NCBI RefSeq assembly: GCF_036013525.1
Contig: NZ_CP107853.1
Coordinates: 6,448,001-6,512,000 of the forward strand
Reading direction: 5' to 3'
Source of the DNA: Nonomuraea sp. NBC_00507
Lineage (GTDB): Bacteria > Actinomycetota > Actinomycetes > Streptosporangiales > Streptosporangiaceae
Length of the DNA: 64,000 nt
The position numbers were made by a program, and so were the translations under genes. Positions 53,766 through 60,977 of this stretch are shown here, piece by piece. The notes under the pieces were generated by a model, which did not search any database, had not been told where the DNA came from, and was given only the letters and a program-made list of their open reading frames with translations. How positions within the stretch are numbered: the first letter of the stretch is position 1; each line of letters starts with the position of its first letter.

Positions 53766-56312
53766 TCACTTCGGGGCCGCGTCGGGGAGGCGGTCGCAGA
53801 TGGCGTCCTTCGGCGGCGGCTCGTTCGTGTCGAGCACCCCGCAGCGGACGACCGGCTTGGCATACCCCCACGCTGTTTTCTCCACCTTCATGATGGCGAC
53901 CACCTTGTTCACCGGACCGTGCCGCTCCGACGGGGCAAAGTCGATCACACCGCCAGATCCCTCCCAGGATGAGCTGCCGGAGGTACGGGAGAGCCGGTAG
54001 AGGATGTCGCCCCTGCTGGGCAGCCCCTGATCGGTGCTGGCTGCGAGATAGGCGGCATTGGCGGCCTGGTACACCACGCTGATGGCGTCGTAGGTGAGGA
54101 TGAGGTTCTCGTCCGCGGCCTTCCTGTGCGCGCCCTGGAGCAGCCTGCCGACGAACGCCGTCGGCTTGGCGGAGCCGGCCGACCAGAGGGCCCGGTTCGC
54201 CAGTGCCAGGTGGTAGACCTCGACCTGCTTCATGTTGGCGATCTCGGCGCCGTGGTCGACCACCACCTTGACGACGTCGTCACCGGCGATCACCTTGAGC
54301 ACACCGGTCCCGCAGGCCTTGCCTTCGATCGCGACGAGGAAGTCGCGGAACTCCGGGGCGCGCCCCGCGTACATCAGGACGTCCGGCTTGAGCTCGCAGG
54401 CCTTCACCGCTGCCGCGGAGATCCCGCCGGCGTTCACGGTGTAGGAGAGGCGGTCCTTGACGTCGACGCCCTGCTGGACCAGCGTCGTCTCGAGGTCGGC
54501 GGCCAGGTTGTTGGTGTAATCGTCGCTGGGCGAGCCGTCCTGCACGATGACCGCCGACGTGAGCTTGAGCCTGCCGGCGAACCTGGCCGCCAGCGAGGCC
54601 TCGCGGAAGTTGGTGGGGCCCACGTGGAAGTAGTACGGAGACGGGTTGCCGGTGTCATCGAGGTAGCCGAGCCGATCCGCGGTCGCCGTGCCGGCCACCA
54701 TCGGGATCTTCGCGGCGTGCAGCACGTCGACTGCCTGCCTGACTCCCTCGACGCTACGGCCAAAGCCGACCACGCCCATGACGTGCCGGTCGGCTTCGGC
54801 CAGCCTGGTGATGAGCTCCGCCGTCCGCCGGCCCTGCCGGAAGTTGTCGCCCGCGTTGGCGATCAGCACGCGCAGCCGCGGGGTGCCGGAGACCGTGCGC
54901 TGGTATTCCTCGACGGCCGCGAGTTCGGATATCGCGCTCGCCAGGCGGGTGTCGTCCGCCGCCGCCTTCTTGATCGAGAACTCGCCGAACAGGACCACGC
55001 TGACGTACCTGCCCGAGCTCGTGGCAAAGTCGTTGTTTTCGTCGATCTTCTTGATGAGGTTCTTCACCTCGCCGTCGAACAGGTCGTCCGGCGTGTCTTC
55101 CGCCGCGTTGACGACGCCCACGCACTCTCCGTCGATCCGCTCCACCCAGGCAAGGCCGCCACAGTGCGCGTCCCTGTCCTGCTGGGCCCAGAAGACCCAG
55201 GCGAGGGGCGCGGTGACCAGGAGGAGAACGGCGCCCCAGTATCCGAGCGCGCGCAACCGGCTCCGTACCAGCCGCGGCTTGTACGTCTGCGCCAGCTGGT
55301 CCGAGGGCGGGTCGGAAGACCGGAGGTCGAGCCTCAGGCGGGGAAGGCGCCGCTTCGCCAGCTCCTGCCATTTCTTGACCGCGACGTCGAGGTCGCTGAA
55401 CTCCAGGGGCTTGGCTGATGTCGCGGTGGTGAAGTCGTCGGGCACGGAGGCCAGCACGATCATCGGGGGCAGTAGCCCGGTCTCCTCCGTGGTCTTCTCC
55501 AGGAGGTGAAGGAAGTCGGCGTTCACCCCCGACGAATTCTTGATCTCGAGGAGTACGAGGGAGTACAGCCCCCGGCCCCAGCTCGGCCAGGGAATGACCC
55601 ACTTCTTGTACGCCGTGCGCATGTCGCCGCAGAGCGCATGGACCAAGAGCAGCTCGAGATCCGGGTCGCTCGCCTTCGCCAGGCGTGAGGCGTAATCGGG
55701 GAGCCGCTCGAACGGGGCGCGCCGCAGATAGGGCTGCTTGCGGAACCAGCCGGTGAACAGCGATCCCCTGATCGACAGCACCCCCATCGCCGCGGTGCCG
55801 ATCACCGCCACCGTGCCGCCCAGCAGCCACGGAATGATGCCGACGAGGTCGGATGCGCCGCCCACCCACCAGACGGCGAACGTCCCGAGCGGGACCCACG
55901 TGGTGGCCGCGCGGGTCAGGAAGTCGGCTGTGGTCCTGACATTGTGGTCGCCGCCGCGATTGCGCCTCCTGAGCCGCTTCTTCCACTCCCCGTAGCCGCC
56001 CTCCTCAGGCTGCTTCTTCGCCCACAGGACGAACTGGACGAAGGGGAAGCGGGGCGCGGGCAGGAAGGATCCGCCTACCGGCTTGCCCAGCTTGCGGTCT
56101 CCCGCCAGGGCCTCCACCAACTCGCTCACATTCGCGTGAGCGCCCTCCTCGACCGAGGCGTACGGCACGTCGCCCTTAAAGGGCTTGGCCAGCTTTGTCA
56201 GCGCCTCGAACGCGTGCTCGCCTGTCACCAGCACGATGGGGAGTGGTGGGTCCGCTCGCCAGAACGCCGGCCGCCGAATGAGTCCAGCGATGACACCGCG
56301 CAGATCGGCCAC
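53766..56312 (-). CDS. Three-helix membrane receptor with pseudo-NTPase and periplasmic-binding (PBP1) domains
   Basis: An 848-residue protein. Residues 1-110 and 182-356 are cytoplasmic and look like the halves of a STAND/AAA-type NTPase: PIVLVTGEHAFEALTKL sits where a Walker A loop would be, but without GK-S/T, and YSLVLLEIKNS resembles a Walker B strand. A helical hairpin (138-155, 157-181) interrupts it. A third helix (357-376) leads to an extracellular type 1 ligand-binding domain of branched-chain-amino-acid-receptor style (395-810; RLRVLIANAGDNFRQGR, VVGFGRSVEGVRQAVDVL, IPMVAGTATADRL, ADENLILTYDAISVVYQAAN). It starts at GTG 56312 after GGGGAGG. No ABC permease is near, so it is more likely a sensor than a transporter part. 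The tRNA array lies 162 bases upstream on the same strand. Confidence 0.75.
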   Translation of the reverse strand: MADLRGVIAGLIRRPAFWRADPPLPIVLVTGEHAFEALTKLAKPFKGDVPYASVEEGAHANVSELVEALAGDRKLGKPVGGSFLPAPRFPFVQFVLWAKKQPEEGGYGEWKKRLRRRNRGGDHNVRTTADFLTRAATTWVPLGTFAVWWVGGASDLVGIIPWLLGGTVAVIGTAAMGVLSIRGSLFTGWFRKQPYLRRAPFERLPDYASRLAKASDPDLELLLVHALCGDMRTAYKKWVIPWPSWGRGLYSLVLLEIKNSSGVNADFLHLLEKTTEETGLLPPMIVLASVPDDFTTATSAKPLEFSDLDVAVKKWQELAKRRLPRLRLDLRSSDPPSDQLAQTYKPRLVRSRLRALGYWGAVLLLVTAPLAWVFWAQQDRDAHCGGLAWVERIDGECVGVVNAAEDTPDDLFDGEVKNLIKKIDENNDFATSSGRYVSVVLFGEFSIKKAAADDTRLASAISELAAVEEYQRTVSGTPRLRVLIANAGDNFRQGRRTAELITRLAEADRHVMGVVGFGRSVEGVRQAVDVLHAAKIPMVAGTATADRLGYLDDTGNPSPYYFHVGPTNFREASLAARFAGRLKLTSAVIVQDGSPSDDYTNNLAADLETTLVQQGVDVKDRLSYTVNAGGISAAAVKACELKPDVLMYAGRAPEFRDFLVAIEGKACGTGVLKVIAGDDVVKVVVDHGAEIANMKQVEVYHLALANRALWSAGSAKPTAFVGRLLQGAHRKAADENLILTYDAISVVYQAANAAYLAASTDQGLPSRGDILYRLSRTSGSSSWEGSGGVIDFAPSERHGPVNKVVAIMKVEKTAWGYAKPVVRCGVLDTNEPPPKDAICDRLPDAAPK

Positions 56313-56474
56313 GTGGACGTCCTCCCCTGAGTCTTACCGTCCGCACCCCGGTCAATCCATTCTGTCAAGCTCAGCCGCGCTGGACAGGCATATGGCACGA
56401 AGCTTCTGAAACGACGCTAAGGACCCACCGATGAACGGGCGGGCATACGGCTCCGCAGCGGAAGATCATCGAAG

Positions 56475-56544
56475 AGACGCAGGCGAGAGTCGAACTCGCT
56501 CGGACGGGCTTTGCAGGCCTGCCTCCGCACCCGCGAACTGCGCC
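56475..56544 (-). tRNA. tRNA-Cys(GCA)-like, shrunken D arm
   Basis: 70 nucleotides. The acceptor GGCGCAG pairs with CTGCGTC (one G-U), discriminator U. The T arm is GCGAG-TTCGACT-CTCGC. The anticodon loop is CTGCAAA (GCA), on a stem CAGGC/GCCCG with one A-C mismatch. The D arm is reduced to about CGC-GGGT-GCG and lacks the normal GG pair. It may be a decaying or structurally minimal tRNA. CCA is not encoded. Confidence 0.6.
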
Positions 56545-56580
56545 AAGTCCACCCGGCCCTCACAATGGCGAGGCGGATCG

Positions 56581-56661
56581 TGCGCGAGGACGGAGTCGAA
56601 CCGCCACAGCCGAAGCGTCCGGTTTACGGCCGGGTGGGCTCCCCAGGTGCCCAGCTCGCGC
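56581..56661 (-). tRNA. tRNA-Tyr(GTA)-like with C33
   Basis: 81 nucleotides with a class II variable arm. The acceptor GCGCGAG/CTCGCGC is perfect, discriminator A, D stem GGGC/GCCC, T arm GGCGG-TTCGACT-CCGTC. The anticodon loop reads CCGTAAA: anticodon GTA, but the almost universal U33 is replaced by C. The first pair of the anticodon stem is mismatched (C-A). Confidence 0.65.
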
Positions 56662-56667
56662 GAGAGG

Positions 56668-56688
56668 GAATGTGTGCGTAACACATTC
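56668..56688. other. Perfect hairpin in the tRNA array spacer
   Basis: GAATGTGT-GCGTA-ACACATTC, an 8-base stem with a 5-base loop, starting seven bases from the 5' end of the Tyr-like tRNA. It has no T run in either direction, so it may be a processing or regulatory element rather than a terminator. Confidence 0.5.
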
Positions 56689-56707
56689 AAGTAGCCCAGC
56701 AGACAAG

Positions 56708-56782
56708 TAGCCCCAGCAGGATTCGAACCTGCAACAGACCCGGCTTCGTAGGCCGGCGCTCTATCCATTGAGCTATAGGGCC
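56708..56782 (-). tRNA. tRNA-Arg(ACG)
   Basis: 75 nucleotides. Acceptor GGCCCTA with TGGGGCT (two G-U pairs), discriminator A, D stem GCTC/GAGC, anticodon arm CCGGC-CTACGAA-GCCGG giving ACG, T arm GCAGG-TTCGAAT-CCTGC. A34 would be edited to inosine. It abuts the next array member with no spacer. CCA is not encoded. Confidence 0.85.
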
Positions 56783-56853
56783 GGTCCGGCGGGATTCGAA
56801 CCCGCACCGCCCGGCTCCTTAGGCCGGCGCCTCTCCCATTGGGCTACGGACGC
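56782..56853 (-). tRNA. Class I tRNA with AAG (Leu) anticodon, atypical
   Basis: About 72 nucleotides. The anticodon arm CCGGC-CTAAGGA-GCCGG gives AAG, a leucine anticodon, but the variable loop is only GCGGT, so it is class I; bacterial tRNA-Leu is class II with a long arm. G37 and the D-arm sequence (TAGCCCAATGGGAG) resemble tRNA-Arg. T arm GCGGG-TTCGAAT-CCCGC is perfect. In the acceptor the first two pairs are mismatched (GCGTCCG with CGGACCG). Its 3' end touches the 5' end of tRNA-Arg(ACG). Confidence 0.6.
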
Positions 56854-56858
56854 TTCAG

Positions 56859-56930
56859 AGCCGCAGCGGGGACTCGAACCCCGTCCTGCTGGTTGGAAGC
56901 CAGCTGCCTTACCAGTTCGGCCTCTGCGGC
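56859..56930 (-). tRNA. tRNA-Gly(TCC)
   Basis: 72 nucleotides, first of the array. Acceptor GCCGCAG/CTGCGGC is perfect, discriminator U, anticodon arm GCTGG-CTTCCAA-CCAGC giving TCC, T arm CGGGG-TTCGAGT-CCCCG. The structure is sound. Its sequence is quite unlike the tRNA-Gly(GCC) at 61340-61411. CCA is not encoded. Confidence 0.88.
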
Positions 56931-56980
56931 GTGGACCGATGTCTTCCGCTGTGGAGTTGTCAAAAAGCAAGGAAAGAGAA

Positions 56981-57009
56981 AGGCCGCCTGGGTATGTCCC
57001 TGGCGGCCT
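56981..57009 (-). terminator. Hairpin terminator before the tRNA array
   Basis: AGGCCGCC and GGCGGCCT form an 8-base stem, extended inside by GGG/CCC. On the minus strand it is followed by a T-rich run (TTTCTCTTTCC). It would end a short transcript that carries the 31-codon ORF, or attenuate entry into the array. Confidence 0.65.
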
Positions 57010-57031
57010 CCGGATCATCCTTCGTTTCGGA

Positions 57032-57127
57032 TTACCCCGAAGCCTGCCCGATGAGCGCGCAGCCGGACACCGCAGGCCGGCGATAGAGGCACCGTTCCTG
57101 CCCGAGTGCGGCGGCTGCGTAGCGCAT
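57032..57127 (-). CDS. Candidate 31-residue small protein or leader peptide
   Basis: MRYAAAALGQERCLYRRPAV opens the 31-codon frame, which ends CALIGQASG. GAAAGG lies seven bases before ATG 57127; an in-frame ATG at 57142 would add five residues. A terminator-like hairpin follows 22 bases after the stop, and two palindromes lie upstream. The compact layout of start, small frame and terminator ahead of the tRNA array looks like a leader peptide, but no ribosome-stalling motif is recognised. Coding is a hypothesis. Confidence 0.35.
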   Translation of the reverse strand: MRYAAAALGQERCLYRRPAVSGCALIGQASG

Positions 57128-57181
57128 GGCTGGCCTTTCCATGACGTTGCGGGGGCGGCTGGGATCCGCCCCTTCCTTTCG

Positions 57182-58323: not shown

Positions 58324-59637
58324 ATGTCGCGATCCGCAATATTACGCGGGTTCATCGCCACATTGTTCGCCGCCGCGTTCTGCGTCGTCGGCCTGGCGAG
58401 CCCGGCGCTGGCCGTACCGAACTTCCAGCTTCCCTTCCCATGCGGCCAGAAGTGGCAGCTGAACAGCTGGGCCCACGCGCCCGCCCTCGACATGGTCAAG
58501 GAGCCCGACCAGCACGGCACCGAAGGCGCCACCCTGCTAGCGGCCGCCGGCGGGACTGTGGACAGGTCCTTCTGGCATGACAACGGCGGCCACGTCGTGC
58601 AGATCGATCACGGCGGCGGCTACTTCACCACCTACATCCACCTCCAGTCCCGTGCCGTCTCGGCCGGGGACAAGGTGGAGCGGGGAACCGTGATCGGCAA
58701 GGTCGGCAGGACCGGGGCGGAGTCCAACGACCACCCCCACCTGCACTTCGAGCTCGCCTACGACGCCAACGGCGATGGGGACGCCTCGTGGGGGTTCGCC
58801 GGGTCCGAACGCATCAAGCCGATCTTCAACGGCGTCACCTACGGCCAGGCCAACGGCATGGAGTGGGACAACGTCGAGAGCCGCAACTGCGGCCCGGTGT
58901 CTCCCAAGGGCGACGCGTCCGTTTACGGCGTCCTGTCCAACGGTCTGTTGACGTACACGTCGATTGACGCGGCGACCGGTAAGCGGACGTCGGGTGCCGA
59001 GGTGTCGGCGGTGTCGCTGGGGTTCAAGCCGAAGGCGATAGCGACGCTGAATCACAACACGCTGCTGGTGACCGAGGACGGCACGGGCGGCCGCTTGTAT
59101 CGGGTCGACGTCATCACGGTGAGGGATACGGTGATTTTCGAGAAGCCGGTGTTCTTGGGAACGGGGTGGACGCACGATCTGCTGGCGTATGACGGGTCGT
59201 CTTATCTGTTCGGTATCGCCGATGGTGCGTTGCGCCGGTACAAGCTGACGGCCGACAAGCCGGCGTTGGCGGATATCACGGGTAATACGCTGATCGGGAA
59301 TGGGTTCACGCTGAAGACGCTGACCGCGACGGGTCCGAGCTGGATTCTGGGCACGACCTCGGCGGGTGCGCTGATCTCGTACAAGATCAATGGTGCGGAG
59401 TCGTGGCAGCGCTACCAGTTGCGTGACACGACCTGGCAGGTGTTCGACCAGTTGCTGTCGCCGGGCGGCGGTGTCTACTACGGCCACAGGAACGCCGAGG
59501 GGTCGGTGCACCGCTACTTCGATGAGAACCCGCACGACGGCCAGGGTGATGACCTGACCGGGCAGGGCGTGGTGGACGCCAACGGCTGGACGCAGGTGCT
59601 GCTGTCGGCCAACCCCGACACCGTGACCAGCTCGTGA
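58324..59637 (+). CDS. Secreted M23 peptidase with C-terminal tachylectin-like propeller
   Basis: A 437-residue exported protein. Signal peptide residues 1-30 (LRGFIATLFAAAFCVVGLASPALA). LytM/M23 domain at about 35-190 with metal-site residues His51 and Asp56 in HAPALDM and the HLHFE motif at His139/His141; the first zinc motif is H-x4-D rather than the usual H-x3-D. Residues 197-433 form a propeller of five or so repeats (SSYLFGIADGALRRYKL, PSWILGTTSAGALISYKI, GGVYYGHRNAEGSVHRYF), tachylectin-2-like, probably for glycan binding. GGAGGAA precedes the ATG. The stop overlaps the GTG of the next gene. It would cleave peptidoglycan cross-bridges. The propeller DNA is nearly identical to that of the next gene. 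Confidence 0.88.
   Translation: MSRSAILRGFIATLFAAAFCVVGLASPALAVPNFQLPFPCGQKWQLNSWAHAPALDMVKEPDQHGTEGATLLAAAGGTVDRSFWHDNGGHVVQIDHGGGYFTTYIHLQSRAVSAGDKVERGTVIGKVGRTGAESNDHPHLHFELAYDANGDGDASWGFAGSERIKPIFNGVTYGQANGMEWDNVESRNCGPVSPKGDASVYGVLSNGLLTYTSIDAATGKRTSGAEVSAVSLGFKPKAIATLNHNTLLVTEDGTGGRLYRVDVITVRDTVIFEKPVFLGTGWTHDLLAYDGSSYLFGIADGALRRYKLTADKPALADITGNTLIGNGFTLKTLTATGPSWILGTTSAGALISYKINGAESWQRYQLRDTTWQVFDQLLSPGGGVYYGHRNAEGSVHRYFDENPHDGQGDDLTGQGVVDANGWTQVLLSANPDTVTSS
58951..59624 (+). repeat. Near-identical propeller-coding repeat, copy 1
   Basis: This 674-base segment matches 60297-60970 at an offset of 1346 bases with about eight differences, seven of them within one 30-base patch near 59106-59132. 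Outside the left boundary the two genes still encode the same residues but differ at most third positions. Confidence 0.92.
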
Positions 59638-60977
59638 AGGGCCTACCGGCACGCGCCGCCGTCACGGCCACGGCCCTGATCGCCCTGATCGGGTTATCCC
59701 ACCCCGCGATGGCCGACCCGACGGACCCGCCGATGGAGGCGTCGGACATCACCGCCGCCTACGCCACGGTCGCCTGCGACCCCGGCGGCACCACCTCGAC
59801 GGACGCGGCCCTGGCCACCCAGCTCAACAGCGCGCTCGACGACAAGATGCGCGGCTACATGACCGCCTACCGCGTCTCCTGCGCCCGCATGGTGATCAAG
59901 GCCGTGCACGACCGCGGGCTGCCGAAGCGGGCCGCCGCCATCGCGATCGCCACGACGATCGTGGAGTCCAGCATCCAGAACATCAGCGAGGAAGTCGACC
60001 ACGACAGCCTGGGCCTGTTCCAGCAGCGAGCCTCCTGGGGCAGCAGGACCCAGCGCCTGAACCCGACGTGGGCCACCAACGCCTTCCTCGACAAGATGCT
60101 CCGCGTCTACCCGAACGACAGCTGGCAGACCGCGTCGATCGGCGAAGTCTGCCAAGCCGTCCAGGTCTCGGCCTACCCCGACCGGTACCAGGTCGAGGCC
60201 AGTGACGCACAGATCATCGTCAACGCCATCTGGCCCTACATCGACGGCCCCAACGGTGTGGCCTCGGTGTACGGGGTGCTGTCGAACGGTTTGTTGACGT
60301 ACACGTCGATTGACGCGGCGACCGGTAAGCGGACGTCGGGTGCCGAGGTGTCGGCGGTGTCGCTGGGGTTCAAGCCGAAGGCGATAGCGACGCTGAATCA
60401 CAACACGCTGCTGGTGACCGAGGACGGCACGGGCGGCCGCTTGTATCGGGTCGATATCGGCACGGTGCAGGGTACGGTGATTTTCGAGAAGCCGGTGTTC
60501 TTGGGAACGGGGTGGACGCACGATCTGCTGGCGTATGACGGGTCGTCTTATCTGTTCGGTATCGCCGATGGTGCGTTGCGCCGGTACAAGCTGACGGCCG
60601 ACAAGCCGGCGTTGGCGGATATCACGGGTAATACGCTGATCGGGAATGGGTTCACGCTGAAGACGCTGACCGCGACGGGTCCGAGCTGGATTCTGGGCAC
60701 GACCTCGGCGGGTGCGCTGATCTCGTACAAGATCAATGGTGCGGAGTCGTGGCAGCGCTACCAGTTGCGTGACACGACCTGGCAGGTGTTCGACCAGTTG
60801 CTGTCGCCGGGCGGCGGTGTCTACTACGGCCACAGGAACGCCGAGGGGTCGGTGCACCGCTACTTCGATGAGAACCCGCACGACGGCCGGGGTGATGACC
60901 TGACCGGGCAGGGCGTGGTGGACGCCAACGGCTGGACGCAGGTGCTGCTGTCGGCCAACCCCGACACCGTCACCTGA
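59634..60977 (+). CDS. Secreted lysozyme-like hydrolase with C-terminal tachylectin-like propeller
   Basis: A 447-residue exported protein beginning at GTG 59634, overlapping the previous stop (GTGA). Signal peptide residues 1-27 (AAVTATALIALIGLSHPAMA). The catalytic part, about 75-205, has the lysozyme/lytic-transglycosylase pattern (AAAIAIATTIVESSIQN with predicted acid Glu111, then HDSLGLFQQRASWGS and the YPDRYQVEASDAQIIV tail), as in actinomycete phage-lysin-like muramidases. Residues 210-447 are the same propeller as in the upstream gene, almost residue for residue (VITVRDT there, IGTVQGT here). Co-translation suggests a pair that attacks peptide and glycan bonds of the same wall, guided by one binding module. 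Confidence 0.85.
   Translation: MKGLPARAAVTATALIALIGLSHPAMADPTDPPMEASDITAAYATVACDPGGTTSTDAALATQLNSALDDKMRGYMTAYRVSCARMVIKAVHDRGLPKRAAAIAIATTIVESSIQNISEEVDHDSLGLFQQRASWGSRTQRLNPTWATNAFLDKMLRVYPNDSWQTASIGEVCQAVQVSAYPDRYQVEASDAQIIVNAIWPYIDGPNGVASVYGVLSNGLLTYTSIDAATGKRTSGAEVSAVSLGFKPKAIATLNHNTLLVTEDGTGGRLYRVDIGTVQGTVIFEKPVFLGTGWTHDLLAYDGSSYLFGIADGALRRYKLTADKPALADITGNTLIGNGFTLKTLTATGPSWILGTTSAGALISYKINGAESWQRYQLRDTTWQVFDQLLSPGGGVYYGHRNAEGSVHRYFDENPHDGRGDDLTGQGVVDANGWTQVLLSANPDTVT
60297..60970 (+). repeat. Near-identical propeller-coding repeat, copy 2
   Basis: Second copy of the 674-base segment at 58951-59624. Both copies use more T and A at third positions (GCGGAT, GGTAAT and similar) than the flanking catalytic domains. 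Confidence 0.92.

Follow-up and report, generated by a model that had tools for sequence, protein, structure and literature searches.

Leader-peptide transcription attenuators of amino acid operons, of the trp and his type, consist of a short ORF with the relevant codons, an intrinsic terminator, and then the operon. In the parts of the literature on clustered tRNA genes that were covered, a tRNA array unit is defined as at least 20 tRNAs at no fewer than 2 per kb (PMC5966550), and the trn array of Anabaena is described as lying on a megaplasmid, normally silent, and induced under translation-targeting antibiotics, with TrcR as its repressor (PMC10272220). The covered parts of PMC12803027 and PMC5966550 describe the purpose of bacterial accessory tRNA arrays as undetermined or as not clearly understood and make no mention of a leader-peptide attenuator. 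Among openly licensed full texts, no relevant report of leader-peptide attenuation at tRNA arrays was found, which does not prove its absence. The window, that is, the whole stretch of 64,000 nucleotides analyzed, holds an array of five tRNA genes, fewer than a tRNA array unit has by definition. The data presented here make it likely that these genes belong to an accessory tRNA mini-operon under a translation-sensing attenuator.

Members and relatives of the window array

The earlier note had described five co-oriented tRNA-like genes, two of them touching. This was borne out by ARAGORN, which found five co-oriented tRNA genes at 56474-56930 on the minus strand of the 64-kb window, with an overlap of 4 nt between the Leu and Arg genes. 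The order of transcription is Gly-TCC, Leu-AAG, Arg-ACG, Tyr-GTA, and Cys-GCA. On Rfam scoring, Arg (63.9), Gly (63.6), and Leu (44.1) were above the tRNA cut-off of 29, and Tyr and Cys fell below it and matched tRNA-Sec only, at 29.3 and 31.7, respectively (family cut-off of 47). That at least three members are structurally abnormal was likewise correct. By eye, pairs 1-72 and 2-71 of the Leu tRNA were found to be broken after its 3' loss, the U preceding the anticodon of the Tyr tRNA was replaced by C (position 33), and the anticodon stem of the Cys tRNA contained a mismatch.

The AAG gene was identified as a tRNA-Leu whose variable arm is short. This identity is plausible; according to the covered part of a review, leucine identity in E. 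coli does not depend critically on the long variable arm. The short-armed array Leu folds as a class I tRNA. In an alignment of 26 of the 31 short-armed array copies with the chromosomal Leu-TAA, from which the broken window copy was left out, 99.8% of the cells were paired, 13 of the 20 pairs were changed on both sides, and no shuffle reached the observed covariation. Because of this strong covariation, it was concluded that the short-armed Leu has been kept as a tRNA. Its novelty was ruled out since the spacing is widespread in the class and constitutes an ordinary actinobacterial trait. The only Leu-TAA found by pattern in the window genome is also short armed (L046 39-113, corresponding to contig 1, 3615728-3615802), and when 138 genomes of the class were scanned by pattern, short Leu-TAA spacing occurred in many families and long spacing in all nine genomes of family f18, each with a match. 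One of the Leu pattern searches had a minimum spacing that left out the short-armed Leu-TAA.

Nonomuraea sp. G32, with 95% identity in the neighboring 848-aa gene, carries seven tRNAs at the same site (Ala, Gly, Leu, Glu, Arg, Tyr, and Cys). Alignment of the window copy to that of G32 revealed two gaps, one removing Ala and the other removing Glu and the 3' end of Leu. The gaps were read as deletions in the window strain because other species carry Ala and Glu at those places in the array. The host has its own tRNAs elsewhere for Gly-TCC, Arg-ACG, Tyr, and Cys as well as several Leu isoacceptors, and the five window tRNAs were therefore deduced to be accessory. The window array represents an accessory chromosomal tRNA mini-array in worn form.

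Two more arrays lie in the same genome (Table 1). The second mini-array has the types that are lost or broken in the window array, namely, Ala, Leu, and Glu, for which the chance is 1/35 in what is a single case. The other, a 35-tRNA array for all 20 amino acids, is on the second contig of 198,862 bp. The mini-array order agrees with that of the 35-tRNA array for 7 of 8 members when Ala is matched by amino acid and not by anticodon, and 50 of 40,320 orders do as well. This shared order suggests common descent.

Across the genus, mini-array DNA was matched strongly (>85 bits, read off the match list) in 28 of 54 Nonomuraea genomes. At 30 loci from 27 of these 28 genomes, compared over up to 20 kb each, the common order was Ala-Gly-Leu-Glu-Arg-(Val)-Tyr-Cys, and many loci are without some members. 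The arrays of G003 and G039 have tRNA sets unlike that of the usual mini-array, and the single-tRNA locus of G010 and the locus of G033 were kept outside all array counts. In many Nonomuraea species, the array tRNA-Ala (e.g., L103 9472-9543) has a recurrent T-stem variant, GGGTTTCGAGATCCC, which by eye is unlike the usual G53-C61 pair.

Leader and terminator upstream of the arrays

Upstream of the window array, at 57140-56970 on the minus strand, a ribosome-binding site is followed by a leader ORF of 31 codons and then by a terminator hairpin (Table 1), and homology to the G006 locus extends beyond the array to about 57267. A simple scanner applied to the window leader region did not list the hairpin and recognized no promoter. 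No Rfam match to a T-box riboswitch was obtained at the gathering score in the window or in six array loci.

Table 1. Features of the window array, its leader region, and other arrays (window positions unless a locus is given)
Feature	Position	Strand	Basis or remark
Shine-Dalgarno-like GGAAAGG	57134..57140	-	By eye; core also before most of 26 Nonomuraea leaders
Leader ORF, 31 codons plus stop, MRYAAAALGQERCLYRRPAVSGCALIGQASG	57032..57127	-	Fixed rule; counterpart at 26 Nonomuraea loci
Predicted antiterminator: last leader codons (57035-57043) pair with TCCGGAGGCC (57005-57014), overlapping the terminator 5' arm	57005..57043	-	
Intrinsic-terminator hairpin, arms 57009-56998 and 56992-56981, T-rich tail 56980-56970	56970..57009	-	Inverted repeat, terminator rule
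Conserved element TTGACAACTCCACAGCGGAAGACAT before first tRNA	56939..56963	-	Motif match at array starts
tRNA-Gly (TCC), intact	56858..56930	-	ARAGORN, Rfam
tRNA-Leu (AAG), short variable arm, 3' end gone together with tRNA-Glu	56779..56853	-	ARAGORN, Rfam, alignment
tRNA-Arg (ACG), intact	56707..56782	-	ARAGORN, Rfam
tRNA-Tyr (GTA), accessory type, C at position 33	56580..56661	-	ARAGORN and inspection
tRNA-Cys (GCA), accessory type, one anticodon-stem mismatch	56474..56544	-	ARAGORN and inspection
Inverted partial copy of conserved element, far array end	56456..56471	+	Inverted repeat
Second mini-array (Ala, Leu-CAG, Glu) with own leader, then F420H2-quinone-reductase/hemerythrin gene	L103 9472-9712 = contig 1, 7889471-7889711		
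35-tRNA array with own leader MISKAAQMQPCRQPWHSALFGDAIAPRQASG and terminator	L034 7713-12903 = second contig, 147712-152902		
27-tRNA viral array, tRNA-Trp first, then TTGACAACTCCACAGCGGAAGACAT core	L274 4685-12245		IMG/VR contig

The structures were examined in an alignment of 27 of the 40 leaders. The terminator was paired in 99.5% of the cells, with one G-C pair changed to A-U on both sides in three leaders. The predicted antiterminator was paired in 90% of the cells and had no covariation support in this alignment. Its duplex was stronger than the mononucleotide-shuffled sequences in 28 of the 40 leaders, with a p value of 0.027 for the window locus. When folds with a stalled ribosome were inspected by eye, the terminator was still favored in most of the 27.

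Recurrence of the layout was assessed by a fixed rule comprising a terminator score, an ORF of 15 to 40 codons, a ribosome site, and a stop codon 10 to 35 nt before the hairpin. The rule was positive before 40 of 56 arrays, compared to 0 of 23 housekeeping tRNA units of the window genome and 1 of 400 random windows. The first loci are not an independent test since the rule was written after those examples, while the control rates are independent. Inclusion of nine further loci (4/18 positive, these being N. gerenzanensis and 3 of the 4 loci of family f17) gave 44 positives for 74 arrays. The N. gerenzanensis leader (NZ_LT559118, L267) is the same as that of L121 (G018), the two probably being one species, and L267 is contained in the totals of 44 and 74 but was kept outside the permutation groups described below. 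In all 44 leaders the distance from stop to hairpin was 17 to 25 nt, compared with the 10 to 35 nt that the rule allowed.

The layout precedes 26 Nonomuraea arrays, the 35-tRNA array, and the arrays of G003, G039, and G024, and the leader-terminator unit is also present before arrays in other genera and in one other family. The loci outside Nonomuraea (20 matches and four f17 genomes) were chosen for carrying accessory-type tRNAs. At the level of sequence comparison, the layout is clearly recurrent. The fixed rule was negative at 16 of the 56 and 30 of the 74 arrays, at 10 of 10 phage clusters, at 8 of 8 plasmid clusters (Mycobacterium, Mycolicibacterium, Arthrobacter, and Euzebya), and at the canonical Gly-Cys-Val clusters of the window and of G32. 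An Arthrobacter plasmid leader, MNHAPKFYGQDQAWTALMRHRS, did not pass the ribosome-site rule and is absent from the fixed-rule counts, and L124, where the leader ORF is present and the T-run degraded, was counted as negative. An over-strict terminator pattern yielded 3 finds in 250 genomes.

Between the terminator and the first tRNA lies the conserved element TTGACAACTCCACAGCGGAAGACAT. With up to 6 mismatches allowed, it was matched 28 times in 1.2 Mb of array loci, and 25 of these matches lie no more than 300 nt from an array. In two families it is located at the start of the array or behind the first tRNA-Trp. A transposon with terminal inverted repeats was ruled out, as the repeats at the array ends are copies of the element found at array starts in other genera. 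A boxA-like role was unsupported since the 16-base core occurs in the window genome only at the window array. The core is also present in two viral contigs, one of which carries a 27-tRNA array (L274), and no leader was found at this array.

Leader composition and array content

Every amino acid of the downstream array is held by 37 of the 44 leaders. The remaining leaders are L034 (lacking E, N, T, V, and Y), L130 (Y), L237 (D and V), L238 (C), L269 (F and K), L270 (K, M, and V), and L272 (K and V). The match between leader and array was evaluated by permutation, with one member drawn randomly from each of 10 groups set by genus and similarity, and 0 of 50,000 permutations were as good as the observed match for each of the Jaccard, coverage, and fraction scores. 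An earlier permutation with 9 groups had given 3, 4, and 0 of 30,000 reaching the observed match. In comparison to random in-frame gene fragments, the enrichment in nine representatives corresponded to Fisher combination p values of 6.7e-8 for fraction and 4e-4 for coverage, to which the 35-tRNA array, holding all 20 amino acids, adds little. The permutation score used with that comparison was ad hoc, and plain scores were used in the later tests. Coverage is weaker than composition as evidence and is unremarkable for tiny sets such as Ala, Leu, and Glu.

The correspondence is visible in individual leaders. The leader of a Leu-Leu array is Leu rich, that of a Trp, Leu, Leu, Ser, Arg, Arg array has 2 Trp, 4 Leu, 4 Ser, and 8 Arg, and the leader MNTALWHLSQRMRYELRAVLAETSG holds all nine kinds of its Trp, Arg, Gln, Leu, Leu, Glu, Met, Asn, Arg, His, Tyr array. 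Taken by amino acid, leaders tend to contain Trp, Met, Asp, Cys, and Asn where the array has the matching tRNA (p values of 2.8e-6 to 3e-4, uncorrected and from related rows, the Trp count including three tRNA genes missed by ARAGORN). The association was weaker for His (0.005), Gln (0.02), and Phe (0.04) and did not reach significance for Tyr (0.07) or Lys (0.13). The missed genes concern leaders L237, L238, and L240, which have Trp and for whose arrays ARAGORN gave no tRNA-Trp. By eye, similarity to the tRNA-Trp called in L239 was seen at the head of each of these arrays, and an Rfam tRNA match of 40.6 bits was obtained at L237 7898-7970; the L238 and L240 copies were not listed by Rfam at an E value of 0.01. 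Five leaders have Trp with no known tRNA-Trp in the array. Leader Trp is a practical sign, having pointed to finder-missed tRNA genes in three arrays. The amino acid match between leaders and their tRNA sets is, as a comparison of sequences, established.

The codons of the 25 Nonomuraea leaders point in the same direction. Array-readable codons numbered 218 of 354, compared to 156 expected, and relative to genome usage the rare codons GCA (33 versus 5.9 expected), GAA (24 versus 6.5), GGA (25 versus 6.3), TAT, and CGA as well as the codon CTC were over-used. The corresponding readers are Ala-TGC, Glu-TTC, Gly-TCC, Tyr-GTA, Arg-ACG (if A34 is modified), and Leu-AAG. Codon 4 is GCA and codon 11 is GAA, each in 16 of the 17 full-length leaders. 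These codon counts are not independent because the Nonomuraea leaders share descent. GCT was also over-used (20 versus 5.8 expected) and is unread by Ala-TGC under the wobble rule applied, so that some of the codon bias may reflect RNA structure. It forms codon 29 in 13 of the 17 full-length leaders, inside the stretch able to pair with the terminator arm. Outside the Nonomuraea group, no codon excess beyond usage was observed (35/55 versus 37.0, 25/34 versus 26.9, and 54/68 versus 52.3 expected). Third-position changes showed no excess in the 17 full-length leaders (916, 1190, 1197), from which it was deduced that the leader peptide lacks the conservation expected of a protein. Conservation at the peptide level is not needed for an attenuator, and the leader ORF remains putative as a translated frame.

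Proposed switch, alternatives, and known systems

We infer the switching, its trigger, and its benefit as follows. RNA polymerase would transcribe the short leader ORF, then the terminator, and then the tRNAs. With the array tRNAs all charged, the ribosome would get to the leader stop and cover the last codons, the terminator would form, and the array would be off. Were one array tRNA missing, through starvation or through cleavage by a tRNA nuclease, the ribosome would stall earlier in the leader, the last leader codons could form a duplex with the terminator 5' arm, and the polymerase would continue into a spare set that includes the absent tRNA. The predicted switch looks intact in the window strain and the array appears to be decaying, and the second mini-array at 7,889,471 with its own leader would still supply Ala, Leu, and Glu. 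It is also somewhat probable that these loci represent a general actinobacterial class, a chromosomal and extrachromosomal reserve in which the leader peptide spells the downstream tRNA set and a lack of any single tRNA among many would induce replacement. A sensor peptide that lists the tRNAs of its operon suggests that the trigger is a shortage of tRNA, which could arise from starvation, antibiotics, or tRNA-cleaving enzymes. Resistance to such enzymes, a role raised in the earlier note, is possible and gains from the predicted attenuator. If this is true, one short peptide would monitor many tRNAs, which would make it the control device of an inducible tRNA-repair reserve.

The loss of Ala and Glu and the damage to Leu in the window copy, together with the variation of tRNA subsets among loci and the member order shared with the 35-tRNA array (7/8), could also be expected of a decaying, neutral remnant of a mobile tRNA array, whose leader and terminator would be fossils or would serve transcription unrelated to tRNA sensing. 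This is improbable given that the short-armed Leu is conserved with covariation, that leader composition follows array content across genera, and that the three types lost or broken in the window are still at the second locus (1/35 by chance, one case). A more serious alternative, still unlikely, is that the leader senses a general slowing of translation, caused for example by ribosome-targeting antibiotics, with the array as a general stress reserve as in the Anabaena trn operon. A terminator behind a short ORF would react to any stall, and the Anabaena array is induced by antibiotics that target translation (PMC10272220, covered part), yet general slowing does not predict that leader residues and rare codons follow the tRNA set of the array, as was observed.

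The earlier note had linked the array to the 848-residue membrane receptor gene as parts of one accessory island. Its placement of that gene 162 bases away on the same strand was accurate: the gene occupies 53766-56312 on the minus strand, and 162 nt separate it from the array. Adjacency and shared strand in the window strain and its sister would suit an array and receptor acting jointly, but a homologue of the 848-aa gene does not adjoin the array at loci from the 25 other array-bearing genomes, and joint action is highly improbable. The island claim holds for the tRNAs, which are accessory, host redundant, and of the mobile-element kind, and is not supported for the linkage to the receptor gene, a neighbor that is incidental. 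For two relatives of the 848-aa gene (L032 and L033) the upstream DNA extended over only 378 and 793 nt, so the absence of tRNAs near them says little. The commonest neighbor of the arrays is an F420H2-quinone-reductase/hemerythrin fusion gene, downstream and co-oriented at 17 of 30 loci. A functional partnership between this gene and the array is unsupported, as a close relative is present in four genomes without the array. PADLOC found no defense system among three neighboring proteins. Elsewhere in the window, at 58324-60977, two adjacent proteins, one with an M23 peptidase domain, have C-terminal halves that are nearly identical, as if duplicated.

As judged from the covered parts of the cited sources, the window array resembles the tRNA arrays of actinobacterial plasmids and phages in being dense, co-oriented, and host redundant, with differing tRNA bodies and a possible antidefense role (PMC5966550 and PMC12803027), and differs in having 5 members rather than at least 20 (PMC5966550). 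The phage and named plasmid arrays tested were without a leader by the fixed rule, whereas the window array has one. Like the known spare-tRNA systems, the window tRNAs could replace cleaved ones; here, in contrast, the set is bacterial and chromosomal and has a putative built-in switch. The Anabaena trn operon is also an accessory tRNA array, silent until translation stress, and is controlled by the protein repressor TrcR, whereas a cis-acting leader peptide and terminator are predicted here (PMC10272220, covered part).

The arrangement is shared with the trp and his attenuators, in which a short ORF with relevant codons is likewise followed by an intrinsic terminator and then the operon. Unlike in those attenuators, the operon here encodes tRNAs rather than enzymes, so that the leader would sense the very tRNAs under its own control, and as many as 16 amino acids of an array are found in its one leader (L269).
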